This document shows positions 5,100-35,645 of a DNA stretch of 64,000 nucleotides, one piece after another. The notes under the pieces are model-generated. The model made no database searches. It worked only from the letters and a program-made list of their open reading frames with translations, and had not been told where the DNA came from. Positions within the stretch are counted from its first letter, which is position 1. Each line of letters opens with the position of its first letter. The translations under genes were made by a program, and so were the position numbers. This DNA comes from Tumebacillus sp. BK434 (GTDB lineage: Bacteria > Bacillota > Bacilli > Tumebacillales > Tumebacillaceae). The stretch is taken from contig NZ_SLXS01000001.1 in the NCBI RefSeq assembly GCF_004340785.1, positions 620,001 through 684,000 of the forward strand, in the 5' to 3' direction.

Positions 5100-8000
5100 A
5101 TGAGCGAACGTTGCATCTATCAACTTTTTGAAGAACAAGCAGTGCGGACGCCCGACCGCGTTGCGGTGGTGAGCGGCGGCGAGTCGCTGACGTACCGCGA
5201 ACTGAACCGTCTGGCCAACCGTCTGGCGGCGGATTTGCGTTCCAACGGCGTTGCATCTGAACAATTGGTCGGGATCTGTACCGACCGTTCGGTCTGGATG
5301 ATGGTCGGGTTGCTGGGCATTTGGAAAGCGGGCGGCGCGTATGTTCCGCTCGATCCGTCGTATCCGGCGGAGCGCCTGGCGCACATCATGAGCATGGCCG
5401 ATGTGCAAGTGCTGGTGACGCAGCAGGCACTGCAAGACGTGCTGCCCGCTCATCAGGCGGAACGCGTTTGGCTGGACGACCTGCGGGAAGAGCTGCCGAC
5501 GGGAATTTCAGAAAATTGGGATGAAAATGCGGGTGGTTCTGCGCATGCAGACGCTTTGGCGTATGTGATCTTCACATCCGGCTCGACCGGCAAGCCCAAA
5601 GGTGTCGCGGTGGAACACCGCTCTGTCTATTACTTATTGGAAGTGTTTGCTGACGTGATGAAGCTGGGTGCGGACGATGTGCAATTGTCTCTCGCTTCAT
5701 TTGCGTTCGATATGTCGGTGTTGGAACTGTACCTGCCGTTGACGCTGGGCGCCCGCTTGATTCTCGGCGAGCGCGGCCTGGCCGGGGACGGCGCGGGACT
5801 GCGCCGCTTGCTGGAGGAACAGCAGGTGACGATGCTGCAGGCGACGCCGGTCACGTGGCATCTGCTGCTCGATGCGGGCTGGGGAGGCACGCCGGAGATG
5901 CGCGTGGTCACAGGCGGGGAAGCTTTGCCTGCACCGCTGGCGCAGCGGCTGCTTGCGACCGATGCCCAGATTTGGAATGCGTACGGCCCGACCGAGTGCA
6001 CGGTGTGGGCGACTTTGCAGCGCGTGGAGGCGGCAGAGCGGGCTCATGTGATCGGGAAGGCGCTGCCGGGGACGGCTGTGTATGTGTTGGATCACGAGCT
6101 GCAGCCGGTCTCCCCAGGTGAGTCCGGCGAGCTTTTCATCGGCGGCGGGCAAGTGGCGCGCGGGTATCACGGAGCGCCCGATTTGACAGTGGAGCGTTTT
6201 TTGCCCGATCGGTTTTCTGCGGAGGAGGGGGCGCGGATGTACCGCACCGGCGACTTGGTGGAACTGTTGCCGGACGGATCGCTGGCTTTTGTCGGGCGTG
6301 CCGATGATCAGGTGAAGATTCGCGGGTACCGCGTGGAGCTGGGCGAGATCGAGCGCGTGCTGGAAACGTCACCGCTCGTGCGTCAGGCGGCGGCGGTGCT
6401 GCGCGAGGAGGTGCCGGGCGAGCAGCGTCTGGTCGCGTACGTGGTGCCGGAGCGCGGGACGGTGTGCGCGGCGGCCGATCTGCGGGCGGTGGCGGCAGAA
6501 CGGCTGCCGGAGTATATGGTGCCGTCGCGCTATGTGCTGCTCGACGCGCTCCCGTTGACGCCAAACGGCAAGGTGGACCGCAAAGGGTTGCCCGCGCCGG
6601 AACAAGGACGCCCGGAGCTGTCGGCCGGATATGTGGCGCCGACGACCCCGCTGGAGCTGGCTGTGGTGCAGGTCTGGGAGGAAGTGCTGGGGTTCGCGCC
6701 GGTCGGGATGCAGGATCGTTTCGGGGAGCTGGGCGTGCATTCGCTGCAAGCGACGCAGGCGGCCGCCCGGATTCGCGAGCGGCTGGGCGCTGAGCTGACG
6801 GTGCGCGACCTGTTTGCGGCGGAGACGGTGGAGGATGTGGCGCGCTTGGCGGCGGAGCGGTCCGGGCGTGAGGTTGTTCACCCGCTGCAGCCGATGCCGA
6901 AAGGGGAATGCGGGACGGCCGGCGTGTCATTCGCCCAGCAGCGCTTGTGGTTCCTCGACCGGCTGCAGCCGAACAGCGCGGCGTATAATATCCCGGTGGC
7001 GATCGAACTGCTGGGACGGCTGGAAGTGCAGGCGCTGCAGGCAGGCTTGACGGAGATCGTGCGCCGTCATGAGACGCTGCGCACCGTGTTTGCGGAAGTG
7101 GATGGCGAGCCGCTGCAGGTGATTGTGGACCCGATGCCGGTCGTTCTGCAAGTTGAGCAGCTGGACCGGGAGCAGGCGGACTTGGAGACGGAACGGGAGG
7201 CGGGCATGCCCTTTGATCTGGCGGCAGGTCCGCTGTTCCGGGCACGGCTGCTTCGCGTGACCGATGAGGAGCATGTGCTGCTGCTGACGATGCACCATAT
7301 CATTTCGGACGGCTGGTCGCAGGGGATTTTATATGCGGAGCTGGCGGCTTGGTACCGCTTCTTCACAGGCGCGACGGCAGAACGGCCGGCGGAGCTTGGT
7401 GTGCAGTATGCCGACTACGCGGCGTGGCAGCGGGTGCGGATGGCTGGCGAGCGGCTGGACGGGCAGGTGGCGTATTGGAAGGAAAAGCTGGGCGGAACGC
7501 TGCCCCTGTCGCAATTGCCGACCGACCGCCCGCGTCCGGCACAGCCGTCGCAGCGCGGGAAGCTAAAGACGTTCCGCTTGGAGCAGGAGCTGCTCGAACG
7601 CTTGCAGGCGTTGTCCCGACGCGAAGGGGTGACGCTGTACATGACGCTGTTGGCGGCGTTTCAGACGCTGCTGCACCGCTATTCGGGCGAGACGGACATC
7701 ATCGTCGGCTCACCGGTGGCGGGGCGCAATCATCCGGCGGTGGAGCGGCTGGTCGGCTTTTTTGTCAACACGCTGGTCTTGCGCACCGATCTGCAGGGGA
7801 ATCCGCCGTTTACGGAGCTGTTGCAGCGGGTGCGCGTGACGGCGCTGGAAGCGCTGGCGCATGGCGACGTGCCGTTTGAGCGCCTCGTCGAGGAGCTGCA
7901 GCCGGAGCGGAGCCCGGGTATTTCACCGCTCTGCCAGGTGGTGTTTGCGCTGCAAAATGTGCCGATGGCAGAATTGGAGCTGCCAGGGCTGAACGCGACG

Positions 8001-11000
8001 GTCACAGAGCTGGACAGCGGGACGGCGAAGTTTGATCTGACGGTGATGATGACCGAACAACCGGACGGGCTGTTGGCGCAGGTGGAATACAGCACGGAGC
8101 TGTTCGAGGAAGCGACGATCGACCGGCTGATGGCGCATTTCCGCGTGCTGCTGCATGGGATCGCGCAGGAGCCGGAGCGGGCGATCGGCGCGTTGCCGCT
8201 GTTGACGGACAAGGAGCGCGAGCAGGTGCTGTTCGGCTGGAATAAGACACAGGTGGAATTTGATGAGGAGCTGCTGTTGCACCAGCTGTTTGAGGCACAG
8301 GCGAATCGCACGCCGGATGCGGTGGCTGCGGTCTATGGGGAGCAGCAGCTCACCTATCGGGAGCTGGAGGAGCAGGCGAACCGTCTGGCACATCGGCTGA
8401 TCGAGCTGGGAACGGGGCCGGATGTGGCGGTTGGCGTTTGTTTGGAGCGCTCGCTGGAGCTGGTGGTCGCGCTGATCGGGATCTTGAAGGCGGGCGGGGC
8501 GTATGTGCCGCTCGATACGGATGCGCCGACGGCGAGGATTGAGCAGATTTTGACAGATGCAAAAGCGCCGGTCTGTTTGATCCAGAGCCGGTTACGGGAG
8601 AAGATGCCAGCGGCTGGTGTGGTGTATCTGGAGCTGGATCTGGCGGAGACGCTGCACGGCTGTCCGGATCACCCGCCCGTTTCGGCTGTGACGTCCGAAC
8701 ATCTGGTGTCGATCTATTATACGTCCGGCTCGACGGGCAAGCCGAAAGGGGTCTGCTCGACGCACAAGGGCTGGGTGAACCGGATGCTGTGGATGCAGCG
8801 GCACTATCGGCTGCAAGCGGGCGAAACCGTGTTGCAAAAGACGACGCTGACGTTTGATGATGCGGCTTGCGAGTTTTATTGGCCGCTGCTGGCCGGCGGT
8901 CGGATCGCGTTGCTGGAGCCGGGGCTGCATAAAGATCCGCGGGCGATTTTGGATGCGGCGATCGAGTATCAGGCGGCGTTCCTCACGTTTGTGCCGAGCA
9001 TGTTGGCGCTGTTCGTGGACGCGGTGACGGAAGCAGACCGCGTACAGTTGAAAGCGCTGCGGCACGTGGGCTCGTCCGGGGAAGCGCTGCGCTCCGACTT
9101 GGTGCGTGCGTTTCAGGAGAAGTTGGGCTGCCTCCTGCACAACACGTGGGGGGCGACGGAGGTGTCGATCGACTCGACGGTGCACACCTGCACAGAAGAG
9201 GATGCGCGGGAAACGGAGATCGTGTCGGTGGGACGTCCCCTCGATAACAACCGCTGCTACGTGCTGGATGGACAGCTGCAGCCGGTGCCGGTCGGGGTGC
9301 CGGGCGACTTGTATCTGGCCGGGATCGGGCTGGCACGCGGGTATTTGAATGACCCGGAGAAGACGGCGGCAGCGTTTGTGGCCGATCCGTTTGTGCCGGG
9401 CGAGCGGATGTACAAGACGGGCGACCGCGGATATTTCCGCCGCGATGGCCGGATCATGTTCCTCGGCCGCCTCGATGACCAGATCAAGGTGCGGGGACAG
9501 CGCGTGGAGGTCGGGGAGATCGAAGCGGTGTTGGCGGCGCATCCGGGTCTGGAACAGTCGTCGGTGAAGGCGTTTAAAGGCAGCGACGGGTATCGTCTGG
9601 CCGCTTATTGTGTGCCGCGCGCCGGGCAGGAGGACGACGTGACGCCGGAAGCGCTGCGGGCGTTTATGGGCGAACGTTTGCCGGAGTATATGGTGCCGTG
9701 GCGGTTTGTGAAGATGGAAGGTGCGTTGCCGACGACAGTTTCTGGGAAGATCGATCGCAAGGCGCTGCCCGATCCGGGGGAGGAGCGGCCAGACTTGCAT
9801 GTCGGGTTTGCAGCGCCAGAGACGGAGCTGCAGCGGGCAATAGCGGAGCTGTGGCAGGAACTGTTGAAGGTGAAGGAAGTTGGGATTTATGACAACTTCT
9901 TTGATCTGGGCGGCCACTCGCTGACGGCGACGCGGATCTTGTCGCGGATCAACCGGAAACTGGAGGTGCACGTGCCGCTGAAGGTGCTGTTTGAGGCGCC
10001 GACGGTGGCAGGCTTGGCGGAGTATGTGCAGAATCTGCACGGCCGCGGGGAACAACGCACTCCTGTTGCGATTGAACGCTTGGGCGGCCAGGGGGAGCAT
10101 GAGCTGTCTCATGCGCAGAAGCGGTTCTGGTTTCAGTATTTGATGGAACCGCTGAATGCATGCGGCGGGGTGAGTGCGAAGCGGATCGACGGTCCGCTCG
10201 ATGCACAGCGGTTCTTGAGGGCTTATGCGGCGCTGTGCGAGCGGCACAGCATCATGCGGGCGACGTTTGCGGAGCGCGACGGGCTGCCGGTGCAGGTGCT
10301 GCAGCAGACCTTGGAGCAGCCGATTGTGTATACGGATACTATGGAGTTGCCGGAGGAAGAGCGCTGGAAGGCGCTGGCTGAGGCGGTCAGACGGGAACAG
10401 GAAACACCGTTTCATCTGCGGGAAGAGACGGCGTTCCGCGCCGGGCTGTATAAGATGGCGGAGCAGGAGCATCTGCTGGTGATCACGCTGCATCCGATCG
10501 CGTATGACAGTTGGTCGGAAGCGGTGTTTATGCAGGATCTGAGCACGCTGTATCAGGAGAAGCCGATGGCTCCGGCGGTGCAATATACAGATTATGCGGC
10601 GTGGCAGAACCGGCTGCTCGGCAACCGGGAGCTGGAGGAGCAGCGGGCGTATTGGGCGAAACGGCTGCAGGAGGATGTTGGCGCGCCTGCTCTTCCCTAT
10701 GATTTTGCTGCTCCGCCAGCAGCGCCGGAAACGGAGTTTCTGCGGAATTGGAAACTTGATGCGGAGTTGACAGGGAAACTGCGTGAGCTGGCAGCAGCTC
10801 AAGGCACGACGATGTATGTGCTGCTCTTGGCCGGCTATAAGATCTGGCTGTCGCTGGTTTCTCGTCAGGAGCAGGTCACGGTGTGTGCGCCGCTGTCGGG
10901 GCGCAGTCATCCGGATTTGGAAGGCGTGCTTGGCGTGCTGGTGAATCCGGTGGCGATGCGGACAGACTTTTCGGGCAATCCGAGCGGGCTGCAGGCGATT

Positions 11001-11474
11001 GAACGGGTGAAGGAGACGGCGGTGGGGGCGTATGCTCATCAGGATTATCCGTTCGATCTGGTGCTGCAGGATCTGCGGGCGAACGGGCTGGCTGCGCAGG
11101 CGCTCTACAAGGTGGTGTTTGTGGGCCAGAATGCTCATCTCGATGAGATGGTGCTGGAGGCAGGCGTGACGCTGACCAACCGATCAATGCCTGAGCTGTT
11201 TGCGCCTTGGGGGCTGGATGTGCGGGATTATGTCCACAATCGGTTTGCGGGCGACCCTTCGGTGCAACTGGACTTGCATGTGGATGTGTTTGAAGGGGAA
11301 GCGGATGTTTTGGTGATGACCCGGTTTAATCCGCTGCGCTTTGCCGGGGAGACGATTGAAGGGTTTTTGGCGCAGTATACGCGGGTGTTGGAGCAACTGG
11401 CAGAAGACCCCTCGATGCGTCTTTCGCAGTTTGTGGTGGAGGAAGCAGCATTTGTGCTGGACGATCTTTTTTAA
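5100..11474 (+). CDS. Two-module NRPS, A-PCP-C-A-PCP-C*
   Basis: This is a cytosolic non-ribosomal peptide synthetase of 2124 residues. Domains in order: A1 (FTSGSTGKPKG near 158), PCP1 (Ser 548 in the variant core LGVHSL), C1 (HHIISDGWS near 732), A2 (YTSGSTGKPKG near 1208), PCP2 (LGGHSL, Ser 1607) and a terminal C-like domain (HPIAYDSWS near 1798). There is no starter C, epimerase or thioesterase domain. By-eye pocket residues after GrsA are DMLVVGAVWK for A1 (related to Gly-type codes, weak) and DDCSGSTIDK for A2 (no known match). A GTG at 5076 lies upstream of the Shine-Dalgarno AGAGGAGGT (5081-5089), so the ATG at 5100 is preferred. An AT-rich leader precedes it. The product is predicted to be a dipeptide. 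Confidence 0.93.
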   Translation: MSERCIYQLFEEQAVRTPDRVAVVSGGESLTYRELNRLANRLAADLRSNGVASEQLVGICTDRSVWMMVGLLGIWKAGGAYVPLDPSYPAERLAHIMSMADVQVLVTQQALQDVLPAHQAERVWLDDLREELPTGISENWDENAGGSAHADALAYVIFTSGSTGKPKGVAVEHRSVYYLLEVFADVMKLGADDVQLSLASFAFDMSVLELYLPLTLGARLILGERGLAGDGAGLRRLLEEQQVTMLQATPVTWHLLLDAGWGGTPEMRVVTGGEALPAPLAQRLLATDAQIWNAYGPTECTVWATLQRVEAAERAHVIGKALPGTAVYVLDHELQPVSPGESGELFIGGGQVARGYHGAPDLTVERFLPDRFSAEEGARMYRTGDLVELLPDGSLAFVGRADDQVKIRGYRVELGEIERVLETSPLVRQAAAVLREEVPGEQRLVAYVVPERGTVCAAADLRAVAAERLPEYMVPSRYVLLDALPLTPNGKVDRKGLPAPEQGRPELSAGYVAPTTPLELAVVQVWEEVLGFAPVGMQDRFGELGVHSLQATQAAARIRERLGAELTVRDLFAAETVEDVARLAAERSGREVVHPLQPMPKGECGTAGVSFAQQRLWFLDRLQPNSAAYNIPVAIELLGRLEVQALQAGLTEIVRRHETLRTVFAEVDGEPLQVIVDPMPVVLQVEQLDREQADLETEREAGMPFDLAAGPLFRARLLRVTDEEHVLLLTMHHIISDGWSQGILYAELAAWYRFFTGATAERPAELGVQYADYAAWQRVRMAGERLDGQVAYWKEKLGGTLPLSQLPTDRPRPAQPSQRGKLKTFRLEQELLERLQALSRREGVTLYMTLLAAFQTLLHRYSGETDIIVGSPVAGRNHPAVERLVGFFVNTLVLRTDLQGNPPFTELLQRVRVTALEALAHGDVPFERLVEELQPERSPGISPLCQVVFALQNVPMAELELPGLNATVTELDSGTAKFDLTVMMTEQPDGLLAQVEYSTELFEEATIDRLMAHFRVLLHGIAQEPERAIGALPLLTDKEREQVLFGWNKTQVEFDEELLLHQLFEAQANRTPDAVAAVYGEQQLTYRELEEQANRLAHRLIELGTGPDVAVGVCLERSLELVVALIGILKAGGAYVPLDTDAPTARIEQILTDAKAPVCLIQSRLREKMPAAGVVYLELDLAETLHGCPDHPPVSAVTSEHLVSIYYTSGSTGKPKGVCSTHKGWVNRMLWMQRHYRLQAGETVLQKTTLTFDDAACEFYWPLLAGGRIALLEPGLHKDPRAILDAAIEYQAAFLTFVPSMLALFVDAVTEADRVQLKALRHVGSSGEALRSDLVRAFQEKLGCLLHNTWGATEVSIDSTVHTCTEEDARETEIVSVGRPLDNNRCYVLDGQLQPVPVGVPGDLYLAGIGLARGYLNDPEKTAAAFVADPFVPGERMYKTGDRGYFRRDGRIMFLGRLDDQIKVRGQRVEVGEIEAVLAAHPGLEQSSVKAFKGSDGYRLAAYCVPRAGQEDDVTPEALRAFMGERLPEYMVPWRFVKMEGALPTTVSGKIDRKALPDPGEERPDLHVGFAAPETELQRAIAELWQELLKVKEVGIYDNFFDLGGHSLTATRILSRINRKLEVHVPLKVLFEAPTVAGLAEYVQNLHGRGEQRTPVAIERLGGQGEHELSHAQKRFWFQYLMEPLNACGGVSAKRIDGPLDAQRFLRAYAALCERHSIMRATFAERDGLPVQVLQQTLEQPIVYTDTMELPEEERWKALAEAVRREQETPFHLREETAFRAGLYKMAEQEHLLVITLHPIAYDSWSEAVFMQDLSTLYQEKPMAPAVQYTDYAAWQNRLLGNRELEEQRAYWAKRLQEDVGAPALPYDFAAPPAAPETEFLRNWKLDAELTGKLRELAAAQGTTMYVLLLAGYKIWLSLVSRQEQVTVCAPLSGRSHPDLEGVLGVLVNPVAMRTDFSGNPSGLQAIERVKETAVGAYAHQDYPFDLVLQDLRANGLAAQALYKVVFVGQNAHLDEMVLEAGVTLTNRSMPELFAPWGLDVRDYVHNRFAGDPSVQLDLHVDVFEGEADVLVMTRFNPLRFAGETIEGFLAQYTRVLEQLAEDPSMRLSQFVVEEAAFVLDDLF
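8265..11471 (+). other. Atypical terminal module A-PCP-C* of the two-module NRPS
   Basis: This module has the unusual A4 motif FDDAACEFYWPLL, NTWGATE in place of NxYGPTE, an otherwise intact A10 lysine (SGKIDRK), a normal PCP serine, and a last C-like domain whose active site reads H-P-IAY-D-S. The histidine that normally acts as general base is proline and the following glycine is serine. The same module design recurs at 32437-35642. Confidence 0.85.
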
Positions 11475-11483
11475 TCTGTATTC

Positions 11484-11517
11484 AAAAAGGGACTGTGCTT
11501 TCTGCACAGTCCTTTTT
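11484..11517. terminator. Terminator between convergent NRPS and aldehyde dehydrogenase
   Basis: A stem GACTGTGC/GCACAGTC is flanked by A- and T-runs, so it can act in both directions. It sits 10 bases after the NRPS stop and just before the end of the leftward aldehyde dehydrogenase gene. Confidence 0.9.
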
Positions 11518-11534
11518 ATGTGTCTGTGGGGGGG

Positions 11535-13121: not shown

Positions 13122-13254
13122 AGGATGTTCACTCCTTTTAGACGCATAAGTTCAATTTTATTGTACTGGATCGTTCGAAAAAAGAGTATCATTTCTTTTT
13201 GCCATCGCCTGCGCATAAAATGTCTCAAGCACAAGTGCGGGGAGGGCTGGTCGC

Positions 13255-13368: not shown

Positions 13369-13399
13369 AAAACCGCTTCCGGTGAAGGAGGCGGTTTTT
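13369..13399. terminator. Bidirectional terminator
   Basis: The stem AAAACCGCTTCC/GGAGGCGGTTTT has one G-T pair and loop GGTGAA, with A- and T-runs on both sides. It ends the small membrane-peptide gene and overlaps the stop codon of the leftward GGDEF gene. Confidence 0.85.
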
Positions 13400-15322: not shown

Positions 15323-15335
15323 GGGGAGGATTTCC

Positions 15336-22314: not shown

Positions 22315-22842
22315 GATGACAAGATTTCCAAAATTGGCGTGGCGGTGCTGGTCGGCTGGGATGCACAGAGCGGGGAAAAAGGACTGTTGCTGCCGGCCGG
22401 CTGTTCACTGGTAGCGGCACTGTTTTACGGTGTGGCCGGCGTGTTTTCGGCACGGCAGTTTAAAGGCGAGCGGTCGCTTGACATGGCGATCGGACAACAG
22501 CTGGCCGCTGCGCTGCTCTTGCTCCCGTTTGCCGCCGTGACGTTGCCGGAGCAGGTGCCGGGGGTTGAAGTGACGCTGTCGGTGCTGGCATTGGCGATTT
22601 TTTGCACGGCGCTGGCCTACCTGCTGTATTTTGCGCTGATTCAAAACGTCGGGGCGGTCAAAACGCTGAGCGTGACCTTTCTTGTCCCGGTGTTCGGCAT
22701 CTTGTGGGGGGCCTTGTTCCTGAACGAACAAGTAACGTTGGCGACGGCAGGCGGTCTGCTGATCATCTTGCTGAGCATCGCCTTGGTTATGAATGCGCGG
22801 TTTTTCGGCAAAAGTATTTTGTTCAAATTTTCAACGAAATGA
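22315..22842 (+). pseudogene. C-terminal half of an EamA/DMT-family transporter
   Basis: The readable 167-codon frame (GTG 22339) encodes about five membrane helices matching the second EamA repeat of a drug/metabolite transporter (LVAALFYGVAGVFS, AYLLYFALIQNVGA, TFLVPVFGILWGALFLNE). The frame stays open upstream to a TGA at 22312-22314 and still reads like the inter-repeat linker (KIGVAVLVGW). The first repeat is absent: a regulator terminator lies directly upstream and no ribosome binding site is seen. I call it a remnant left by a deletion or insertion next to the large NRPS. A five-helix paired SMR-like transporter is less likely. Confidence 0.75.
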
Positions 22843-22916
22843 TATTGTTCTCCCTTGCGATATTTATTAAAATGTTAAATAACTATATGTAATTTATATC
22901 GCGGGGAGTGGTCAAA

Positions 22917-25900: not shown

Positions 25901-28900
25901 ATCTGAGCACGGGGCGGGCGGTCTGACGCTGATCTGGGAGTACAGTTCCGATCTGTTCGAGGAAGCGACGATCCGGCGGATGATCGGGCATTATCTGAAC
26001 CTGCTGGAGCATGCCGTCGCTGAGCCGGAGACGCAAGTGGCGTTGATGCGGTTGCTGGAAGAGCGGGAGGCGGAGCAGATCATGACCGCATGGAACCGAA
26101 CGGAAGCGGGCGGCGTGCCGGATCTGCCGCTTCATGCGCTGTTTGAGGCGCAGGCGGCTCGGACGCCAGATCGGACAGCCGTCGTGTTTCAGGAACAGTG
26201 CCTGACCTATCGCGAGCTGAACAGGCAGGCGAACCGCTTGGCCCGCCATCTGCGCAAGCTCGGCATTGCGGCGGAGGAGAAGGTCGGACTGTGTGCCGAG
26301 CGGTCGCCGCAGATGCTCGTCGGGCTGCTCGGCATCTTAAAAGCGGGCGGCGCATATGTGCCGCTGGACCCGGAGTACCCGCAGGAGCGCTTGGCGTTTC
26401 TGATGCGGGACGCACGAATGGCCGTGGTGGTGACGGAGAGCAGTCAGACGGAGTGGCTGAAAGCAGTGGCTGTAGAGGCGCATCAGTCGGAACTCGATGG
26501 GCTCCAGGCAGAAAAGCCGGACGCAGAGGCAAGGATCGGCAACCTGCAGCTCGTATGTTTAGACGGCGGGATGGAGCTCTGGTCGCAAGGGCAGGGCGCC
26601 GATCTTGAACTTCCCATCACAGCCGACCGGCTCGCCTACATGATCTATACCTCCGGCTCGACAGGGAAGCCGAAAGGGGTGCAGGTGGAGCATCGAAATG
26701 TGGTGAACTTCCTGCACAGCATGCAACAACGACCGGGTGTCGAAATGGACGATGTGCTGCTGGCGGTGACGTCGCTGTCGTTTGACATCGCGGCGCTGGA
26801 GCTGTTCTTGCCGCTGGTGACGGGGGCAAAAACGGTCTTGGCCGACCGGGCGACCGCTGCGGACGGGAAGAAGCTCGCCGCCTTGCTTGCGCGCTCCGGC
26901 GCGACGATGATGCAAGCGACGCCTGTCACTTGGCGGCTGCTCGTCGAGGCTGGTTGGCGCAGCGCAGGGCGTGTGAAAATGCTCTGCGGCGGGGAAGCAT
27001 TGCCTGCCGACTTGGCGCGGAGCTTGACGGCAGACGACTCGGAGCTGTGGAATCTGTACGGTCCAACGGAGACGACGATCTGGTCGACTTGCACCCGCAT
27101 CGAGCCGGATTTTGTCGGTACCCCCTCGATCGGCAGTCCGATTGCGAACACGAACGTGTATGTGCTGGACGCGCGCTTGCAGCCGGTGCCGGTCGGCGTG
27201 CCCGGCGAACTGTGCATCGGCGGGGCCGGTGTGGCGCGCGGGTATTGGAACCGCGCCGAGTTGACGGCGGAGACGTTTATCTCCCACGAATTGGGCCGCT
27301 TGTACCGGACGGGTGACCGCGTGCGCCTGCTGACAGACGGGAGGTTGCAGTATCTGGAGCGGATGGATCATCAGATCAAACTGCGCGGGCTGCGCATTGA
27401 GCTGGGCGAGATCGAGGCGAGGCTGCACCTGCATCCCCGCGTGCAACACGCGGTGGTGGCCGTCCAAGGGGACTCGCATTCCGACAAGCGACTGGTCGGC
27501 TACGTGGTGCCACGCGGTCTGGAAGCGCCGACCGCGCAAGAGCTGCGCACTTATTTGAAGGCAAGCCTCCCGGAGTATATGGTTCCTTCTGCTGTGCTCA
27601 TGCTCGACGCCCTTCCGCTCACGCCAAACGGGAAAGTGGACCGCCGCGCATTGCCGGCACCGGATGCACAGGCCGCAACAGGTGAATACCTCGCGCCGCG
27701 CAATGAACGGGAGCGGCAGGCGGCGGAGATTTTTGCCCAGCTGCTGAAACGGGAGCGGGTCGGCGTCACCGACAATTTCTTTGCGCTCGGCGGGCACTCG
27801 TTGCTGGCGCTACAGGCTGTGTCGAGGCTGAGCATCGCACTCGGCGTCGAAGTGCCGTTCCGTGCGGTGTTTGAGGAGCCGACGGTGGCCGGGCTGCTGG
27901 AAAGTCTGGACGGGCTTGCGCAGCAGCAACGTGCTGCGCACATGCCGATGCAACTGCCGCAGATTGACCCATTGCCGCGCGGCGATGACGAAGTGCTGCC
28001 CTTGTCGTTTGCCCAACAGCGACTGTGGGTGCTGGAGCAGATGTTAGGCGGAAGTGCGGCGTATCATTTCCCGTACGCGATGCGCTTACAGGGGGAACTG
28101 GAGGTCAGTACCCTTGCGCGCAGTGTGCAGGCATTGGTGCACAGGCATGAAGCGCTGCGCACGACGTTTCAAGAGCGCAACGGGCAACTGGTGCAGGTGA
28201 TCGGAGCCGCAGAGCCGATGTTGCTTCCTGCTGTTACCGTTCACGAAGACGACCTGCCGGAGCTGATGCAGGCGGAGGCAGGGCGTCCGTTTGATCTCCG
28301 GCGCGGCCCGCTGTTCCGCGCGTCGCTCTGGAGAATCAGCGAGACGGAGCATGTCCTGCTGTTCAACATGCACCATATCATCACCGATGGCTGGTCGTAC
28401 GGCGTGCTGGCCCATGAATTGTCGGCGCTGTATGCGAACGAGCCGCTTGCTCCCTTGCCGGTGCAATACGCCGACTTTGCGGCGGCGCAGCGCAACTGGA
28501 TGCAGGGCGAGGTGCTGGAAACGCAGCTCGCTTACTGGAAACGGCAACTGGACGGCGAACTGCCCGTCCTCGAGCTCCCGACCGACCATCCGCGCCCGGC
28601 GGTGCAGACTTATAACGGCACGTTCTGCAAACGAGAGCTGCCAAGCCGGCTGACCGAACGGCTGCGCGCCTTCAGCCAACAGCGCGGCGTGACGCTGTAC
28701 ATGACCCTGCTCGCCGCGTTTCAAACGCTGTTGCACCGCTACACCGGCCAAGAGGATCTGCTGGTCGGCTCCCCGATCGCAGGACGCAATCGCCAGGAAG
28801 TGGAAGGGCTGATCGGCTTTTTCGTGAACACGCTGGTTCTGCGTACCGACTTGGCGGGCAACCCGTCCTTTGACGAACTGCTCCGCCGGGTGCGGGAAAC

Positions 28901-31900
28901 GGTGCTCGGGGCGTTTGCGCATCAGGACGTGCCGTTTGAACGCCTGGTGGAAGAGCTGCAGCCGGAGCGGGTGCTGAGCCATTCGCCGCTCTTTCAGGTC
29001 TCGTTTCAACTGCTTTCCGCCTGGCAGGTCGAACTGCAGGGCTTGGACGTGCAGTCCCTCGAAGTGCAGACCTCCACGGCCAAATACGACCTGTCTGTCG
29101 CCGTGATCGAAGAGGGGGATCAACTGGCCTTGCGCTTTGACTACAACACCGATCTGTTCGAGCGGGCTATGAACACACGGATGATGGAGCATTTCCGCGT
29201 CCTGCTCGAAGGCATCGTCGCCGAGCCGGATCAGCGAATCGGAATGTTGCCGTTGTTAACGGCGGAGGAGCGGGAACTCGTGCTCGGCAAATGGAATGAG
29301 ACGGCTGTGCAATATCCAAGGGAGTGTACGGTGCACGAACTGTTTGAGCGGCAGGCGGAGCGGACGCCCGATGCGGTGGCGGTGGTGTACGGGGAGCAGA
29401 CTTTGACGTATGCGGAGCTGAATCGCCGGGCGAATCGAGTGGCGCACGAACTGCGTGCGCGCGGCGTGGCACCCGACCAGCCGGTGGCGATCTACATGGA
29501 GCGGTCAGCAGAGCTGATCATCGGCTTGCTTGCGATCATGAAAGCAGGGGGCGCGTATCTCCCGCTCGACCCGGAGTATCCGCAAGAGCGCATCGCCCTG
29601 ATGCTGGAAGACGCCGCAGCAGCCCTGTTGCTGACACAATCTCATCTGGCGAACAGTCTTCCTGCGCATACCGTGCAGATTGTCTGCCTCGATGCGAGAT
29701 GGGAGAAATCAATCGGTGACTGCGATACCAATCTGCAGTCTGGCACCACCGCCGAACATCTGGCGTACATCACCTACACCTCCGGCTCGACCGGGCGTCC
29801 GAAAGGCGTTTGCATCCCGCACCGTGCAGTGGTGCGGTTGGTGACGGGAACCGACTACGCGGAGTTTGCGCCGGAAGATGTTTTCTTGCAGTTCGCTTCG
29901 ATCTCCTTCGACGCGGCGACGTATGAGATCTGGGGCAGTCTGCTGAACGGTGCGCGGCTTGTCGTGTATCCGGCAGGGAAGGCAACGCTGCAGGAACTTG
30001 GCCGTGTGATTCAAGCGCAGCGCGTGACGACGCTGTGGCTGACAGCCGGGCTGTTTCATCAGATGGTCGAGGAGCAACTGCCGCAATTGGCAGCGGTCAA
30101 ACAGCTGCTCGCCGGAGGTGATGTCTTGTCCGTGCCCCACGTCAAACGCGTGTTGCAACATCTGCCGGGGCTCACACTGATCAATGGCTATGGCCCGACG
30201 GAAAGCACCACGTTTGCCTGCTGTTACAGCATGACGCATGCGGAGCAAGCGGGGACTGCGGTGCCGATTGGGCGTCCGATCGCCAATACGCAAGTCTATG
30301 TGCTGGACCGCCGCCTGCAGCCGGTGCCGGTCGGCGTGCCGGGCGAGCTGTATCTCGGCGGTGACGGCTTGGCGCGGGAGTACTTGAATCTGCCGGAAAT
30401 CACGGCGGAGAAGTTCATCGAACATCCGTTCTCTTCTGTTGCGGACGCCAAGCTGTACCGTACCGGCGATCAGGTGAAATACCTGCCCGACGGCAACCTT
30501 GAATTCCTCGGCCGCCTTGACCAGCAGGTGAAGATCCGCGGCTTTCGCATCGAAACGGGGGAAGTCGAGGCTCAGCTTTTGGCTTCCTCCAGCGTACGGG
30601 AAACGGTTGTAACCGTGTATGAGCCGAATGTAGGGGATAAGCGCTTGGCCGCCTATGTGGTGCCCGCGCACGGAGTCGATTTTGACGAGTCGGCCCTGCG
30701 GCAGGAATTGAAAGGCAGACTGCCCGGCTATATGCTCCCATCCGTATTTGTGGCGTTGGAGCGGCTGCCGCTGACCCGCAACGGAAAAGTGGATCTGCAG
30801 GCATTGCCGGAGCCGCAGCAAGCGGTGTCAGAACTGATGGCGGAACCCCGCAATCAGGACGAAGCATGGGGAGCTGACCTGTTTGCCGAGCTGTTGGGCA
30901 CGCGCGTCGGGATCACCGACAACTTTTTCGAGCGGGGCGGCCATTCGCTGGCGGCGACGAGGGCGATCTCCCGCCTGCGCGCGGTCTACGGTGTCGAGTT
31001 GTCGCTGCAGGCGTTTTTTGAAGACCCGACCGTGGCCGGCGTGATGCAGAAGGTGCAGGCGCTGCAAGGTGCCGCGGCACAGATGCGGATCGTCCCGGTG
31101 CCGAGAGAGCAGACGCTGCCGCTTTCCTTCGCCCAGCGCAGGCTGTGGTTCTTCGATCAGTTTGAGCCGGGCAACCCGGTGTACAACATCCCGGTCGCGC
31201 TGCGCCTGACTGGGGATCTGGATGTGCCTGCTTTGGCACGCAGCCTGCAGGAGATCGCTGCGCGCCACGAAGCTTTGCGCACGGTGTTTGCCGATCAGCT
31301 CGGAGAGCCGTCGCAGGTCATTCTATCGGCACCTGACTCTTTTTTGACGCTTGAGACACGTGACGTTGAGACGCTGATCGGGGAAGAGCAGCGCCATGCG
31401 TTTGATCTGCAAAACGGGCCTTTGTTCCGTGCCCGCTTGGTGCAGGCCGGGGAGCGGGAGCATGTGCTGATCCTGAACCTGCACCACATCGCAGCGGATG
31501 GCTGGTCGATCGGTGTGCTGGCCCGGGAGCTGTCGGCGCTTTATTCGTCGCGGTCGCTGGAGAGCCTGCCCGTCCAGTACGCCGACTTCGCGGTCTGGCA
31601 GCGCGAGTGGCTGCAAGGTGCCGTCTTGGAACGGCAGCTCGGCTATTGGAGAGAGCAGCTCGGCGGCAACTTGCCGCTCCTGCAACTGCCCGCCGACCGC
31701 CCTCGTCCGGCGGTGCGGACGTATCACGGAGCGGGGCATCGGATGACGCTCGCTGCCGGATTGAGCCAGGCGATCCACGCGCTTTGCAAACAGGAAGGCG
31801 TCACGCTGTTCATGACGCTGCTCACCGCCTTCAAGACTTTGCTGCACCGCTACAGCGGCCTGCAGGACATCCTCGTCGGCTCCCCAGTCGCAGGGCGCAA

Positions 31901-34900
31901 CCGGGCGGAGATCGAAGGGCTGATCGGCTTTTTCGTCAAAACGCTCGTCCTGCGCTCCGATCTGTCCGGCGACCCTTCGTTCCGCGAGCTGCTGGGACGG
32001 GTGCGGAAGATGACCTTGGCGGCGTTCGACCATCAGGATGTGCCGTTTGAGCGGCTGGTCGATGAGCTGCAGCCGGAACGCCACGCGAGCATTTCGCCGT
32101 TGTTCCAAGTGATGTTCGTCCTGCAAAACGCGGTGAACGAGCGTTGGGAGCTGCCCGGCCTCGCAGTAGAGCAGCTGAAACTCGAGCAGCAGACCGCCAA
32201 GTTCGACCTGACGCTGAGCGTGGCGGAAGACGGAGCGGAGCTCGGCGTGCATGTCGAGTACAACACCGATCTGTACGACCGCGCGACGATCGAGCGGCTC
32301 TGCGGACACTACGAGACCCTGCTGCAGGGCATCGTCGCCGATCCGGGGCAAAAGATTTCCGCACTGCCCTTGTTGACCGCGTCGGAGCGGTATCAGGTAC
32401 TTGTGGAATGGAATTCGACTGAAATTCCTATTGCGAACGTTTGTTTGCATGAGCTGATCGAAGAGCAGGTGCAGTGTACTCCTCATCTTGTGGCAGCGGT
32501 GTACGGGGAGCAGGAGCTGACGTACGCGGAACTGGATGAGCAGGCGAACCGCTTGGCGCACCATCTGATCGCGCATGGCGTCGGGCCGAATGTGCCGGTT
32601 GGCGTGTGCATGGAGCGGTCGCTGGAGCTCGTCGTGGCGCTGGTCGGGATCTTAAAAGCGGGCGGCGCGTACGTTCCGCTGGACACAGATGCTCCGACGG
32701 CCAGAATTCGTCAGGTGCTGGAAGATTCCCGCGCTGCCGTGTGCGTGACGCAGATGAGCTTGCTGGCTAAGCTGCCTGTGGAGACTATTCAGTACGTGTG
32801 CCTCGACCCGGGTTCCCAAGTTCTGCAGACCTATCCTGTTCATGCGCCGCACACGGCGGTCACACCCGACAATCTCATCTCCATCTACTACACCTCCGGC
32901 TCCACAGGCAAGCCCAAAGGCGTCTGCTCCACACATCGCGGCTGGGTCAACCGCATGCTCTGGATGCAGCGCCAGTATCAGCTGCAGCCAAAGGAGACCG
33001 TTTTGCAAAAAACGACTTTGACCTTCGACGATGCCGCCTGCGAGTTCTACTGGCCGCTGCTTGTCGGCGGGCGCATCGCGCTACTGGAGCCGGGTCTGCA
33101 CAAAGACCCGCGGGCGATCTTGGACGCGGCAATCCGTGATCGGGCGGCATTCCTCACCTTCGTGCCGAGCATGCTCGCCCTGTTCGTCGAGGCGGTCACG
33201 CCGGAAGACCGCGCGAGACTGCAGCATCTGCGCCACGTCGGCTCCTCCGGCGAAGCGTTGCGCTCCGACCTCGTGCGCCGCTTCCGGGAACAAATCGGCT
33301 GTGCGCTCCACAACACGTGGGGTGCGACAGAAGTGTCGATCGACTCCACGATTCACACCTGTACCGCAGAAGATGAACATGCTGCCGAGATCGTCTCGGT
33401 GGGGCATCCGATTGACAATAACAGATGTTATGTTCTCGATGAGCAGCTGCAGCCCGTTCCGATCGGCGTGCCCGGCGACTTGTATCTCGGCGGGATCGGC
33501 TTGGCCGTCGGCTATCTGAACGACCCGGAGCGCACGGCAGCAGCGTTTTTGCCCAATCCGTTCGTCGAAGGGGAACGTCTGTACAAAACGGGCGACCGCG
33601 GCTTTTTCCGCGCGGACGGCAGCATCATGTTCCTCGGCCGCCGCGATGATCAGATCAAAGTCCGGGGGCAGCGCGTGGAGCTCGCCGAGATCGAAGCGGT
33701 GCTGGCGACTCACCCCGATCTGCAGCAAGCTGCGGTGGCGGCGTTCAAACGCCCGGACGGCTATCTGCTGGCCGCCTATTGCGTGCTGACCGACCCGTTG
33801 GCACAGGTAAACACTGAAAGCCTGCGCGCGTTCATGAGCGACCGCCTGCCTGATTACATGGTGCCGTGGCGGTTTGTCAGACTTGACACGCTGCCGACGA
33901 CGGTCAGCGGCAAAGTCGACCGCAAACAGCTCCCCGACCCGGGCGATGAGCGTCCCGAGCTGGAAGAGGCGTTTGTCGCGCCGGGCACGCACGCCGAACG
34001 GACGGTGGCGACGATCTGGCAGGAGATTCTCGAAGTGAACCAAGTGGGCGTCCGCGACAATTTCTTTGCGCTCGGCGGGCACTCCCTGTCCGCGACGCGC
34101 ATCATCTCCCGGGTCAACCGCGAGCTGGAGGTGCAGCTGCCGCTGCGCGACCTGTTTGAGTCGCCGACGGTGGCCGGACTGGCGGAAAAAGCGGACCGGA
34201 GCGCAGGAGCTGGGCAAGCGCCGATTCCCCGCTTTCCAAAGCGGACAGAGTTCCCGCTGTCGCACGCTCAGCAGCGATTCTGGTTCCAGTATCAATTCGA
34301 TCCGGAAAGCATGGCGGCAGGTGCGATGAACCTGCACCTGCTGGACGGGCCACTGGACGCGGAGCAGCTGTTGCGCGCCTACCGCGCCCTCACCAAGCGC
34401 CACAGCATCATGCGCACGATGCTGGCAGAGCGGGCCGGGGAAGGGACGTTGCAAATCGTGCACGAGGAAGTTGCGGAGCCGATCCGTTTTGTTGACCTGA
34501 CCGAACTGCCTGAAGCGGAACGGGGAAACCGTCTGCTGCGCATCCTGGCTGACGCGAAGAACGCGCCGTTTGATCTCACGCGCGACTTCTTTTTCCGCGC
34601 CTGCCTGCTCAAGCTTAGCGACCGTCAGCACGTCCTGCTGTGCAACATTCACCCGATCGCGTATGACGGCTGGTCGATCACCGTTTTCTTCCGCGATTTG
34701 GCAGCATTGTACCAAGGGGCGGAACTTCCGGCCGCGTTGCAGTATGGCGAATACGCCCTCTGGCAGCACGAGCAGTTGGCGGATGGGAAATTGAACGGGC
34801 AAAAGGCGTACTGGCTGCAGCAACTGGCGCTGGAGACGGGGCCTCCTGCGCTGACGCATGACTTTGCAATGCTGCCAGAACAGACGGAGCGGGTGACCGA

Positions 34901-35645
34901 CCGGCGTCTGACGCTTGGGCCGGCTCTGGCCGCGAAACTGCGCGTATTGGCGGCAGAACAGGGCACGACGCTGTATTTGACGCTGTTGACCGGCTTGAAA
35001 ATCTGGCTGGCGCTGACCTCCCGCCAAGAGCTGATCACCGTCTGCTCGCCGATCGCCGGCCGCAGCCATCCCGACTTGGAGAGCGTCTTGGGCCTGATGG
35101 TCAACCCGCTCGCCCTGCGCACCGATCTTGCTGACAACCCGACCGCGCTGCAGGTGCTGGAGCGGGTCAAAGAGACCGCGTTTGGCGCCTATGCCAACCA
35201 GGACTACCCGTTCGACCTCATCTTGCACGATCTGCGCGCCCGCCGGGGCGGAGAGCTGGGCGAGAGCTTGTACAACATCGTGTTCGTCGGCCAAAATGCG
35301 CACCTCGACGCGGTCGAACTGGCACCGGGCGTGACGCTTCGCTATTGCTCCTTTGAGGAGCTGATCGGCAGCATCGGCATCGACCCAAGCGCTGAACAGG
35401 CGCAAGCGGCGAAGGAGAGAGACGACTTCGCAGACGACCCGACGGTGGAGTTCGACCTGCATATCGAAGCGTACGATACCGAAGACAGCCTGACCCTCGT
35501 CGCTGCTTACAACGCCAAACGATTCACCTCAGAAACGGTCGACAGGCTGCTCAGCGAATACGAATCGGTGCTGCAGCAATTCGCCAATGACTGCACGCTG
35601 CGCCTGTCGCAGATGCAATTGCCGGAGCCGATCGACCTGTTTTAA
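22917..35645 (+). CDS. Four-module NRPS, (A-PCP-C)x3-A-PCP-C*
   Basis: This cytosolic non-ribosomal peptide synthetase has 4242 residues. Landmarks by residue: A1 core 153, PCP1 Ser 540, C1 HHMVHDG 732, A2 core 1244, PCP2 Ser 1628, C2 HHIITDG 1819, A3 core 2287, PCP3 Ser 2677, C3 HHIAADG 2856, A4 core 3325, PCP4 Ser 3723, terminal C-like HPIAYDG 3912. There is no starter C, epimerase or TE domain. By-eye pocket residues are DANSVAAVCK (aromatic, near Phe/Tyr codes), DILVLGLIWK (one change from the Gly code I recall), DAYGLGGTFK (partly Val/Ile-like, uncertain) and DDCSGSTIDK (unknown). The predicted product is aromatic-Gly-aliphatic?-X. A GTG at 22908 overlaps the GGGGAG ribosome binding site, so the ATG at 22917 is preferred. 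All residue calls need alignment software. Confidence 0.94.
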   Translation: MISMNERGAQWWFEEQAAQRPDALAVVFADKEVTYAELNGLADRLAHNLRRLGVGPDVLVGICAERSVEMVAGLLGILKAGGAYVPLDPAYPADRLRYMLEDAAVPVLLTQAHLADRLPDCGAEVVCLEQAMQGEEQPLPQTVRADDLAYVIYTSGSTGRPKGVMLTHRGMCNMIRATVQLFDVREDSRLLQFASFSFDAATNEIFTALSAGGTLYLARQEELMPGPGLIGLLKNLAITHVTLPPSVLAMLPDEFPHLRTVVSAGENCPLETASRWARGRRFVNAYGPTEATVCASAAVYVGECQNVTIGQAIEGVELFVLDRQMRQVQAGAEGELHIGGPGLARGYLHRPELTAEKFVPHPFSEDSEQRLYKTGDLVRLLTDGTLEFLGRIDQQVKIRGFRIELGEIEATLVGHERLREAVLLAREDAPGEPKLVAYVVPHAGQEAPRAVELRRFLQDKLPDYMVPAFFVVLDRFPLTPNGKVDRRALPAPDARRGELESEFVRPRTPLEVSLQQIWQDVLGLDGLGVHDPFLELGGHSLQAVQILARVREQLDVEIGLHELFAKQTIALLAEELEAKRLAGTGVSNSFIPRVPRKEEIPVSSAQERVWFVHKMNPDNRAYAAQAMMRLQGDLRRDVLERALTAVVERHEMFRTTFQEADGRPAQKIHPPFAVKVPVVSLLAVPVAERESCLTGLMQDEMARPFDMRELPLVRWTLYQVGAQEHVLLHIEHHMVHDGWSYNVFLREFTALYNAFRNGQASPLAEMPVQFADFAHWQRSWLQSVQAQEQVQYWQQKLAGCNPVLELPSDRPRPALPSHRGGAVRVDLPAKLCERLTAMGRQEGVTLYVTLLTAFKVLLYRYTGQNDLLVGSAVANRRLRDTEGLIGMIVNNVVLRTQLDGDVPFRELLGQVRAMAYEAFAHEDLPFDKLVEAVNPVRDTSRNPLIQVMFSFHDSPLPKLDLQDLTVQVKEALNNGSAKFDLNVVGLPLQEARLGESEHGAGGLTLIWEYSSDLFEEATIRRMIGHYLNLLEHAVAEPETQVALMRLLEEREAEQIMTAWNRTEAGGVPDLPLHALFEAQAARTPDRTAVVFQEQCLTYRELNRQANRLARHLRKLGIAAEEKVGLCAERSPQMLVGLLGILKAGGAYVPLDPEYPQERLAFLMRDARMAVVVTESSQTEWLKAVAVEAHQSELDGLQAEKPDAEARIGNLQLVCLDGGMELWSQGQGADLELPITADRLAYMIYTSGSTGKPKGVQVEHRNVVNFLHSMQQRPGVEMDDVLLAVTSLSFDIAALELFLPLVTGAKTVLADRATAADGKKLAALLARSGATMMQATPVTWRLLVEAGWRSAGRVKMLCGGEALPADLARSLTADDSELWNLYGPTETTIWSTCTRIEPDFVGTPSIGSPIANTNVYVLDARLQPVPVGVPGELCIGGAGVARGYWNRAELTAETFISHELGRLYRTGDRVRLLTDGRLQYLERMDHQIKLRGLRIELGEIEARLHLHPRVQHAVVAVQGDSHSDKRLVGYVVPRGLEAPTAQELRTYLKASLPEYMVPSAVLMLDALPLTPNGKVDRRALPAPDAQAATGEYLAPRNERERQAAEIFAQLLKRERVGVTDNFFALGGHSLLALQAVSRLSIALGVEVPFRAVFEEPTVAGLLESLDGLAQQQRAAHMPMQLPQIDPLPRGDDEVLPLSFAQQRLWVLEQMLGGSAAYHFPYAMRLQGELEVSTLARSVQALVHRHEALRTTFQERNGQLVQVIGAAEPMLLPAVTVHEDDLPELMQAEAGRPFDLRRGPLFRASLWRISETEHVLLFNMHHIITDGWSYGVLAHELSALYANEPLAPLPVQYADFAAAQRNWMQGEVLETQLAYWKRQLDGELPVLELPTDHPRPAVQTYNGTFCKRELPSRLTERLRAFSQQRGVTLYMTLLAAFQTLLHRYTGQEDLLVGSPIAGRNRQEVEGLIGFFVNTLVLRTDLAGNPSFDELLRRVRETVLGAFAHQDVPFERLVEELQPERVLSHSPLFQVSFQLLSAWQVELQGLDVQSLEVQTSTAKYDLSVAVIEEGDQLALRFDYNTDLFERAMNTRMMEHFRVLLEGIVAEPDQRIGMLPLLTAEERELVLGKWNETAVQYPRECTVHELFERQAERTPDAVAVVYGEQTLTYAELNRRANRVAHELRARGVAPDQPVAIYMERSAELIIGLLAIMKAGGAYLPLDPEYPQERIALMLEDAAAALLLTQSHLANSLPAHTVQIVCLDARWEKSIGDCDTNLQSGTTAEHLAYITYTSGSTGRPKGVCIPHRAVVRLVTGTDYAEFAPEDVFLQFASISFDAATYEIWGSLLNGARLVVYPAGKATLQELGRVIQAQRVTTLWLTAGLFHQMVEEQLPQLAAVKQLLAGGDVLSVPHVKRVLQHLPGLTLINGYGPTESTTFACCYSMTHAEQAGTAVPIGRPIANTQVYVLDRRLQPVPVGVPGELYLGGDGLAREYLNLPEITAEKFIEHPFSSVADAKLYRTGDQVKYLPDGNLEFLGRLDQQVKIRGFRIETGEVEAQLLASSSVRETVVTVYEPNVGDKRLAAYVVPAHGVDFDESALRQELKGRLPGYMLPSVFVALERLPLTRNGKVDLQALPEPQQAVSELMAEPRNQDEAWGADLFAELLGTRVGITDNFFERGGHSLAATRAISRLRAVYGVELSLQAFFEDPTVAGVMQKVQALQGAAAQMRIVPVPREQTLPLSFAQRRLWFFDQFEPGNPVYNIPVALRLTGDLDVPALARSLQEIAARHEALRTVFADQLGEPSQVILSAPDSFLTLETRDVETLIGEEQRHAFDLQNGPLFRARLVQAGEREHVLILNLHHIAADGWSIGVLARELSALYSSRSLESLPVQYADFAVWQREWLQGAVLERQLGYWREQLGGNLPLLQLPADRPRPAVRTYHGAGHRMTLAAGLSQAIHALCKQEGVTLFMTLLTAFKTLLHRYSGLQDILVGSPVAGRNRAEIEGLIGFFVKTLVLRSDLSGDPSFRELLGRVRKMTLAAFDHQDVPFERLVDELQPERHASISPLFQVMFVLQNAVNERWELPGLAVEQLKLEQQTAKFDLTLSVAEDGAELGVHVEYNTDLYDRATIERLCGHYETLLQGIVADPGQKISALPLLTASERYQVLVEWNSTEIPIANVCLHELIEEQVQCTPHLVAAVYGEQELTYAELDEQANRLAHHLIAHGVGPNVPVGVCMERSLELVVALVGILKAGGAYVPLDTDAPTARIRQVLEDSRAAVCVTQMSLLAKLPVETIQYVCLDPGSQVLQTYPVHAPHTAVTPDNLISIYYTSGSTGKPKGVCSTHRGWVNRMLWMQRQYQLQPKETVLQKTTLTFDDAACEFYWPLLVGGRIALLEPGLHKDPRAILDAAIRDRAAFLTFVPSMLALFVEAVTPEDRARLQHLRHVGSSGEALRSDLVRRFREQIGCALHNTWGATEVSIDSTIHTCTAEDEHAAEIVSVGHPIDNNRCYVLDEQLQPVPIGVPGDLYLGGIGLAVGYLNDPERTAAAFLPNPFVEGERLYKTGDRGFFRADGSIMFLGRRDDQIKVRGQRVELAEIEAVLATHPDLQQAAVAAFKRPDGYLLAAYCVLTDPLAQVNTESLRAFMSDRLPDYMVPWRFVRLDTLPTTVSGKVDRKQLPDPGDERPELEEAFVAPGTHAERTVATIWQEILEVNQVGVRDNFFALGGHSLSATRIISRVNRELEVQLPLRDLFESPTVAGLAEKADRSAGAGQAPIPRFPKRTEFPLSHAQQRFWFQYQFDPESMAAGAMNLHLLDGPLDAEQLLRAYRALTKRHSIMRTMLAERAGEGTLQIVHEEVAEPIRFVDLTELPEAERGNRLLRILADAKNAPFDLTRDFFFRACLLKLSDRQHVLLCNIHPIAYDGWSITVFFRDLAALYQGAELPAALQYGEYALWQHEQLADGKLNGQKAYWLQQLALETGPPALTHDFAMLPEQTERVTDRRLTLGPALAAKLRVLAAEQGTTLYLTLLTGLKIWLALTSRQELITVCSPIAGRSHPDLESVLGLMVNPLALRTDLADNPTALQVLERVKETAFGAYANQDYPFDLILHDLRARRGGELGESLYNIVFVGQNAHLDAVELAPGVTLRYCSFEELIGSIGIDPSAEQAQAAKERDDFADDPTVEFDLHIEAYDTEDSLTLVAAYNAKRFTSETVDRLLSEYESVLQQFANDCTLRLSQMQLPEPIDLF
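32437..35642 (+). other. Atypical terminal module A-PCP-C* of the four-module NRPS
   Basis: It shows the same features as the last module of the two-module NRPS: FDDAACEFYWPLL, NTWGATEVSIDST, SGKVDRK, a normal PCP serine, and a C-terminal C-like domain reading H-P-IAY-D-G. The two A domains share all ten pocket residues, so both synthetases should load the same last monomer. The C-like domains also share an unusual tail around VFVGQNAHLD. Confidence 0.85.

Follow-up and report, generated by a model that had tools for sequence, protein, structure and literature searches.

The window examined here is a stretch of 64,000 nucleotides corresponding to positions 620001 to 684000 of contig C1 in a 4.65-Mb genome, which also carries spore-germination genes. 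Two forward-strand genes in this window encode nonribosomal peptide synthetases (NRPSs), each as one uninterrupted open frame. NRPS1 (positions 5076 to 11474) is a protein of 2132 aa with the domain order A-T-C-A-T-C*, and NRPS2 (22908 to 35645) is a protein of 4245 aa with the order A-T-C-A-T-C-A-T-C-A-T-C*, as established by Pfam matches and by a parse based on motifs and HMMs. We use C* for the terminal C domain of NRPS1, NRPS2, and their relatives in one clade. At E ≤ 0.001, the only Pfam families matched are Condensation, AMP-binding, AMP-binding_C, and PP-binding, each found twice in NRPS1 and four times in NRPS2 and far above the cut-offs, such that each protein has the A, T, and C domains expected of an NRPS within a single frame. 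Neither matches a thioesterase (TE) family in Pfam at this threshold. Both proteins begin with an A domain rather than a starter C domain, and an A domain comes after every C domain but the last, which leaves no E domain in either protein. Thus, Pfam and domain order bear out the claim of a preliminary description of this DNA that both synthetases lack starter C, epimerase, and TE domains. Its claim that the modules before the last differ also holds, wherein the earlier domains are not mutual best matches among the sequences fetched; NRPS1 A1 and NRPS2 A2 are mutual second-best matches in this set.

The terminal unit of NRPS1 consists of an A domain (8277 to 9800), a carrier (T) domain (9813 to 10019), and C* (10095 to 11471), and the equivalent domains of NRPS2 span 32442 to 33965, 33978 to 34184, and 34248 to 35642. 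The A-T pairs of the two genes are 73% identical (422/575) and the terminal C domains 49% identical (220/450). An alignment with columns anchored on motifs gives both terminal A domains the pocket code DDCTVSTID plus the A10 lysine, at positions that we take to follow GrsA numbering. The preliminary description was therefore correct that the last modules share their order and their pocket, whereas its letters for the code (DDCSGSTIDK) were misread at two of ten positions (278 and 299). Among 148 A domains in the stretches fetched, this code occurs in only three, namely in NRPS1, in NRPS2, and in a third NRPS on contig C2 (C2:339820-344451) that has a single module, C-A-T-C. A fourth C*-ended NRPS of the same genome (C5:201687-208826), with the order half-C-A-T-C-A-T-C, carries DDVQVSQID in its terminal A domain, so DDCTVSTID is present in three of the four.

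Phylogeny, which the preliminary description named both as a check and as a possible refutation, places the two terminal modules as sisters. Their A domains pair with support of 94/89 in a tree of 35 rows, which the third NRPS joins at 100/98, and a larger clade (100/99) adds the fourth paralogue and another module from Tumebacillus avium. Their C domains pair at 99/97, and the third NRPS joins them at only 83/67. The agreement between the A and C trees suggests that the terminal unit was duplicated as a whole. Recent gene conversion between the two modules was considered and set aside, in that block-wise DNA identity ranges from 0.48 to 0.80 with no tract of high identity. The codes DDVQVS, DDCTVSTID, DIWEMSTDD, DIWEMPADD, and DDVQASLID do not occur in the literature text searched.

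The genes around NRPS1 and NRPS2 indicate that the two synthetases belong to separate loci. An MFS exporter gene (3737 to 4984, forward strand; MFS_1, 1.4e-37) is paired with NRPS1. NRPS2 is followed on the same strand by a regulator with a C-terminal ArsR-type HTH (35736 to 36830; HTH_5, 3.7e-11, residues 288 to 332) and by its own MFS exporter gene (36830 to 38128; MFS_1, 4.3e-34). The closest named record among the matches listed is T. avium AR23208, wherein the orthologues of NRPS1 and NRPS2 are 85% and 79% identical, respectively. Immediately preceding NRPS1, an orthologue of the NRPS1-side exporter is found both in T. avium (92%) and in G002 (83%), a same-genus genome that consists of a single contig and is listed as 100% complete. 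The NRPS2-side regulator is found beside NRPS2 in T. avium (74%), whereas G002 has only a 29% relative elsewhere. A relative of the NRPS2-side exporter lies behind NRPS2 in T. avium, where the gene appears split over two frames, and the syntenic stretch of G002 holds no match.

Six genes between the two synthetases (ALDH, GGDEF, metallo-hydrolase, a 175-aa ORF, desaturase-like, and regulator genes) are kept in all three genomes, but a pair of PF00144 genes and an EamA gene in the same interval are not. In G002, NRPS1, its MFS gene, and the background genes that follow are found at the same position, but this stretch lacks NRPS2, the EamA gene, and the NRPS2-side regulator and exporter, and the flanking regulator and DoxX genes are only 1,120 bp apart. 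When 150 of 182 candidates from G002 were scored, the only C* domains recovered were those of NRPS1 (718 bits) and of the C5-type NRPS (492 bits), and the next C domain reached 306 bits. Because NRPS1 and its MFS gene are present where NRPS2 is absent, NRPS1 is independent of NRPS2. The suggestion that the two proteins could be halves of one assembly line is therefore unlikely, given that each has its own MFS gene and that G002 lacks NRPS2. With conserved background genes lying between them and NRPS1 alone in G002, the region from 3.7 to 38.2 kb is better described as two small loci. The EamA-type transporter gene of the window (22339 to 22842) matches only residues 138 to 293 of a 305-aa T. 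avium protein and thus looks truncated.

The pocket codes permit a tentative description of the products. The first three A domains of NRPS2 have the codes DANTVSAVC (A1, 22950 to 24419), DILQMCLIW (A2, 26130 to 27689), and DAYWLAGTF (A3, 29328 to 30839), which we take to be Phe-like, Gly-like, and Val-like, respectively; all were read by alignment within HMM bounds. The T. avium orthologue has DANTVSAVC, DILQMCLIW, DAFWLAGTF, and DDCTVSTID. If these presumed assignments are correct, the codes of both genomes agree with the tetrapeptide aromatic-Gly-aliphatic-X that had been proposed. NRPS1 A1 has the code DMLQVTAVW and clusters with the Gly-like A2 of NRPS2 (99/97 in the 35-row A tree), which predicts a product of the type (small residue)-X. 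We infer from these codes that NRPS1 would make a dipeptide and NRPS2 a tetrapeptide, Phe-Gly-Val-X. The identical terminal codes and sister modules are likewise in accord with the earlier proposal of two related peptides, a dipeptide and a tetrapeptide, sharing one C-terminal monomer.

The identity 2,3-diaminopropionate for X had been suggested by the second Asp of the terminal code, which we presume to be position 236, but the evidence is not enough: the SbnA/SbnB pair of this genome stands in a siderophore-like setting, and SbnB is distributed unevenly across genomes with C*. SbnB scores above the cut-off in all three genus genomes and in three of five more distant C* genomes, falling below it in G039 and G062. 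SbnA scores above the cut-off in six of seven family genomes, the exception (G005) being the sole one without a C* match. The SbnA/SbnB-family pair lies on contig C3 (L169:8973-17560) in an operon that by eye resembles staphyloferrin-B-type siderophore genes. This type of A domain is not tied to C*, as the last modules of three other NRPSs in this genome carry the code DDVQVSTID.

A feature absent from the preliminary description is the loss of the second His of the HHxxxDG motif in the terminal C domains. This motif reads HPIAYDS in NRPS1 (HPIAYDSW at position 10491) and HPIAYDG in NRPS2 (HPIAYDGW at 34650), wherein Pro replaces the second His and the canonical catalytic motif is lost. The third NRPS reads YQIAYDG at this site and the fourth reads HAIVYDG. 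Orthologues were found in the genus genomes for NRPS1 (3/3), NRPS2 (2/3), the third NRPS (2/3), and the fourth (3/3), with all four present in T. avium. These agree with their counterparts, showing HP in all five NRPS1 and NRPS2 sequences, YQ in both of the third type, and HA in all three of the fourth. When C-like domains of this genome were aligned, with weak ones included and contig C5 left out, the second His was kept in 147 of 153. The six exceptions comprise the three C* domains, one domain with HQ, one with HG (degenerate and of uncertain alignment), and one other terminal C domain, in which the motif is SYLFMDGW. The last of these ends another NRPS, L020 (C1:535970-542044), and is only distantly related to C*. 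The earlier view of this ending as atypical must be adjusted accordingly: the order A-PCP-C simply denotes a terminal C domain, and the lost His is the atypical trait.

According to passages of PMC11546977, the second His is usually held to be catalytic or to position substrates, and yet not all C domains strictly depend on it, wherein its mutation sometimes leaves activity. Thus, C* could still condense. C* keeps most of the other core motifs of C domains, and an AlphaFold model of NRPS1 C* has a mean pLDDT of 88.8 with an acidic tail of low confidence. A structure search with this model gave ordinary C domains as the best matches, with Z scores of 39.4 to the C domain of Txo2 (PDB 6p1j) and 37.8 to that of SrfA-C, and X domains somewhat lower. 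As judged from the model, the C-domain fold is intact. The structure search was of no use for discriminating elongation C domains from X domains, both of which fall within a few Z units.

Relatives of C* form a clade with support of 100/100 comprising 29 rows, two identical pairs among them. All score at least 374 bits; among the 75 terminal C rows compared, the best one outside the clade reaches 287 bits. Across the class, a C* member is found at E ≤ 1e-95 in at least 17 of 398 genomes, of which three belong to the genus, three to a sister genus, and 11 to three other families; 17 is a lower bound because the four best candidates per genome were scored. Among the matches listed, the named C* relatives include Paenibacillus and Brevibacillus species. 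The HH pair is retained in 19 rows, and another NRPS gene lies within 600 bp downstream in 18 of these; for the nineteenth (L052), the NRPS gene is 819 bp away. By comparison, in all 10 His-less rows the 600 bp downstream are devoid of an NRPS gene; NRPS2 lies 11.4 kb behind NRPS1. A Fisher test of this association, which ignores kinship, gives p = 5e-7. Independent losses of the His do not serve as a statistical argument, as the tree needs two changes and a single His-less clade has a p-AU of 0.285. The association accordingly rests on one or two events, but it is anatomically clean despite this. The best reading of these observations is that the ancestor of C* was an elongation-type C domain, which in relatives is the last domain of a subunit and precedes a gene for a further NRPS subunit.

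All 29 C* rows end in an acidic [DE][LI]F sequence (…VLDDLF in NRPS1 and …EPIDLF in NRPS2), which is also present in some other C-ended subunits. In the stretches fetched from this genome, such an end is found in seven of 14 NRPS ORFs that end in a C domain, in none of 32 that end in a T domain, and in none of 18 others. Several of the downstream subunits start with a half or degenerate C domain. A junction with a C-[DE]LF tail upstream and a half or degenerate C domain downstream was seen at C1:565851-579842 and in L051, L053, L157, and L159-L161, and this is possibly an undescribed docking arrangement. Docking domains are described as recognizing short linear motifs in passages of PMC11186497. 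By analogy, the [DE][LI]F tail may function in docking here, and a partner may still dock onto it.

C* is under purifying selection, with dN/dS values of 0.11 to 0.21 in six comparisons, which are far less than 1 and mostly like those of neighboring domains. For NRPS1, the values are 0.19 against T. avium and 0.11 against G002 (ordinary C domain, 0.16 and 0.12); for NRPS2, 0.21 (0.15-0.21); for the third NRPS, 0.12 (0.16); and for the C5 type, 0.19 and 0.14 (0.08 and 0.08). Because the value for C* tops all NRPS1 domains in the comparison with T. avium and, for the C5 type, is roughly double the value of the ordinary C domain, the constraint appears somewhat looser. No stops interrupt any of the 10 His-less C* matches.

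It is commonly assumed that a terminal C domain is catalytic, and release by bacterial NRPSs without a thioesterase is understood in few cases. Among known systems, elongation C domains such as TycC PCP-C (PDB 2jgp) and Txo2 share the fold and most core motifs of C* and are its best matches in sequence and structure, with a profile of 25 C* sequences scoring 285.7 bits against the TycC C domain. C* differs from them by the Pro at the second His, by ending the protein, and by the lack of an acceptor module behind it. The glycopeptide X domain (Tcp12, PDB 4tx2; Z 35.7) resembles C* in belonging to the last module and in having the second His replaced. Passages of PMC11546977 and PMC8949500 describe X domains as carrying HRxxxDx and recruiting P450s. 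However, an X domain precedes a TE domain in the last module, whereas NRPS1 and NRPS2 match no TE family, and no P450 family was detected by Pfam or NCBIfam among the flanking ORFs scanned.

The fungal CT domain (TqaA, PDB 5dij) is like C* in ending an NRPS that has no TE domain, but it keeps HxxxDxxS, whereas C* has Pro in NRPS1 and NRPS2 and Gln or Ala in the two paralogues. It is also distant from C*, scoring 64.7 bits with the profile noted above. Fungal cyclodipeptide synthetases share the A-T-C-A-T-C order of NRPS1 and, in passages of PMC11610984, end in CT domains. A C domain likewise takes the place of a working release TE in bacterial NRPSs that add an amine, as set out in passages of PMC10587159, wherein this activity is shown for module 13 of the glidonin synthetase and proposed for bicornutin and malleobactin. 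Unlike C*, the glidonin terminal C domain has HHxxxDG. The thaxtomin synthetases TxtA and TxtB are also A-T-C-A-T-C dipeptide synthetases.

The reading that we favor, to which we assign a probability of slightly less than one half (about 0.48), is that NRPS1 and NRPS2 are separate synthetase-exporter loci, one for a dipeptide and one for a tetrapeptide, and that both synthetases end in a C domain that was kept but probably does not condense. The two would belong to a Tumebacillus family of NRPSs that have a duplicated A-T-C* ending in common. A broader version, which we regard as rather doubtful at present, holds that C* is a new non-condensing terminal class of Bacillota NRPSs, wherein a junction C domain lost its His along with the downstream subunit and then persisted as a platform offering the last T domain to a release enzyme in trans; together with its A-T pair, it would have been duplicated into several short synthetases that are not otherwise related. 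In the favored reading itself, no further subunit follows NRPS1 or NRPS2, and the second His of the former junction C domain has become Pro. C* would no longer join peptides but would serve the last carrier domain as a structural or recruiting end-piece, by analogy with the X domain of glycopeptide synthetases though not as an X domain itself. Release of the chain would occur through cyclization or through a trans-acting enzyme, the leading candidate being a serine hydrolase of the PF00144 family, and the released peptide would be exported via the neighboring MFS protein.

A serious rival, which is possible but which we would not favor, is that C*, despite the missing His, acts as the releasing enzyme, with a free amine, water, or the N-terminus of the peptide as acceptor, such that NRPS1 would yield a diketopiperazine and NRPS2 a cyclic tetrapeptide. 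The terminal position without a TE domain is as expected for such an activity, as is the constraint indicated by dN/dS. Cyclizing or amine-adding terminal C domains are moreover known or proposed in passages of PMC11546977, PMC10587159, and PMC11610984. The rival gains weight from the fact that His mutants are sometimes active (passages of PMC11546977) and that a bacterial C domain adding putrescine is known (passages of PMC10587159). It is harder to reconcile with the disappearance of the His precisely in those forms that have no following subunit. In addition, the fungal CT domain is described in passages of PMC11546977 with HxxxDxxS, the H of which is Pro in NRPS1 and NRPS2, and the C* profile prefers the TycC C domain to the TqaA CT domain by the bit scores given above.

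The tails and junctions raise a different prospect, namely that the acidic [DE]LF ends of NRPS1, NRPS2, and the third NRPS serve to dock these proteins onto a downstream NRPS encoded at another locus, for example the half-C-initiated C5 NRPS, to make longer peptides. The 18 HH relatives that have a C-[DE][LI]F end and precede an NRPS gene, several of these genes being half-C-initiated, fit this idea, as does the restriction of such ends to ORFs that end in a C domain. The C5 NRPS starts with a half C domain, stands alone as an NRPS within the 50 kb fetched at its locus, and occurs in each of the three genus genomes. We nonetheless consider such a hand-over unlikely, in that normal transfer needs condensation whereas the C domains at these ends are without the second His, and NRPS1 and NRPS2 have their own exporters. 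Furthermore, the terminal domain of the C5 NRPS is likewise a His-less C*, and no part of this protein is less constrained than its half C domain (dN/dS 0.28-0.32). It is similarly improbable that C* is a functionless remnant decaying after the downstream subunits were lost. The coincidence of the His loss with the missing subunit could be so explained, as could the larger divergence between NRPS1 and NRPS2 in C* than in the A-T pair and the somewhat raised dN/dS of some comparisons. A decaying domain would not be expected to have between-species dN/dS values that are still only 0.11-0.21, reading frames free of stops, and a modeled fold that appears intact.

The trait deserving follow-up is that a terminal C domain has been retained although its second His is gone, and the C* ending is a testable variant of a well-known kind of enzyme. 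The clade provides a natural paired set, wherein related C domains have the His where a subunit follows and are without it where the protein ends. Moreover, given that the synthetases sharing this ending are short and separate, the question can be addressed experimentally with small proteins. Were C* indeed an interchangeable end-piece, the A-T-C* unit would be useful for small-peptide engineering, and were it a platform, one interchangeable ending would serve several peptides. This genome (G000) is rich in NRPS genes, and its condensation-domain matches number at least 111, most of them on contig C1 (1.22 Mb); this count is a lower bound because the additional NRPS on contig C5 was found only afterwards.

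The locus is undescribed in the parts of the literature searched on Tumebacillus nonribosomal peptides, terminal C domains, interface or X domains, and NRPS release. The matches listed for Tumebacillus and nonribosomal peptides include no paper on such a product, and passages of PMC11546977, PMC8949500, PMC11186497, PMC10587159, PMC11610984, and PMC10212144 contain no description of the locus.

Two adjacent PF00144 serine hydrolase genes of the window (15336 to 18514, forward strand), each with SxxK at residue 61, are candidates for release or processing. The second gene of the pair has a counterpart in T. avium (79%), which has one copy, and the pair has no match in G002 at E ≤ 1e-60; its absence from G002, where NRPS1 persists, weakens the case for PF00144-mediated release of the NRPS1 product. 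No tailoring gene common to all four C* loci was found among the neighbors looked at. Genes of the YcaO, nitroreductase, and MFS families lie directly upstream of the third NRPS (L031:1199-4478; C2:336199-339478). YcaO and nitroreductase genes were dismissed as a trait of the family, as the 20-kb stretch at the T. avium orthologue gave no match at E ≤ 1e-15. The gene immediately behind the C5 NRPS (L146:15479-16609, reverse strand) encodes a further PF00144 serine hydrolase, with orthologues in the same place in the other two genus genomes (84% and 92%), which speaks for a hydrolase of this family as the release candidate. Beyond this gene lie a GDSL hydrolase gene and then a gene that by eye encodes a GntR-like regulator.
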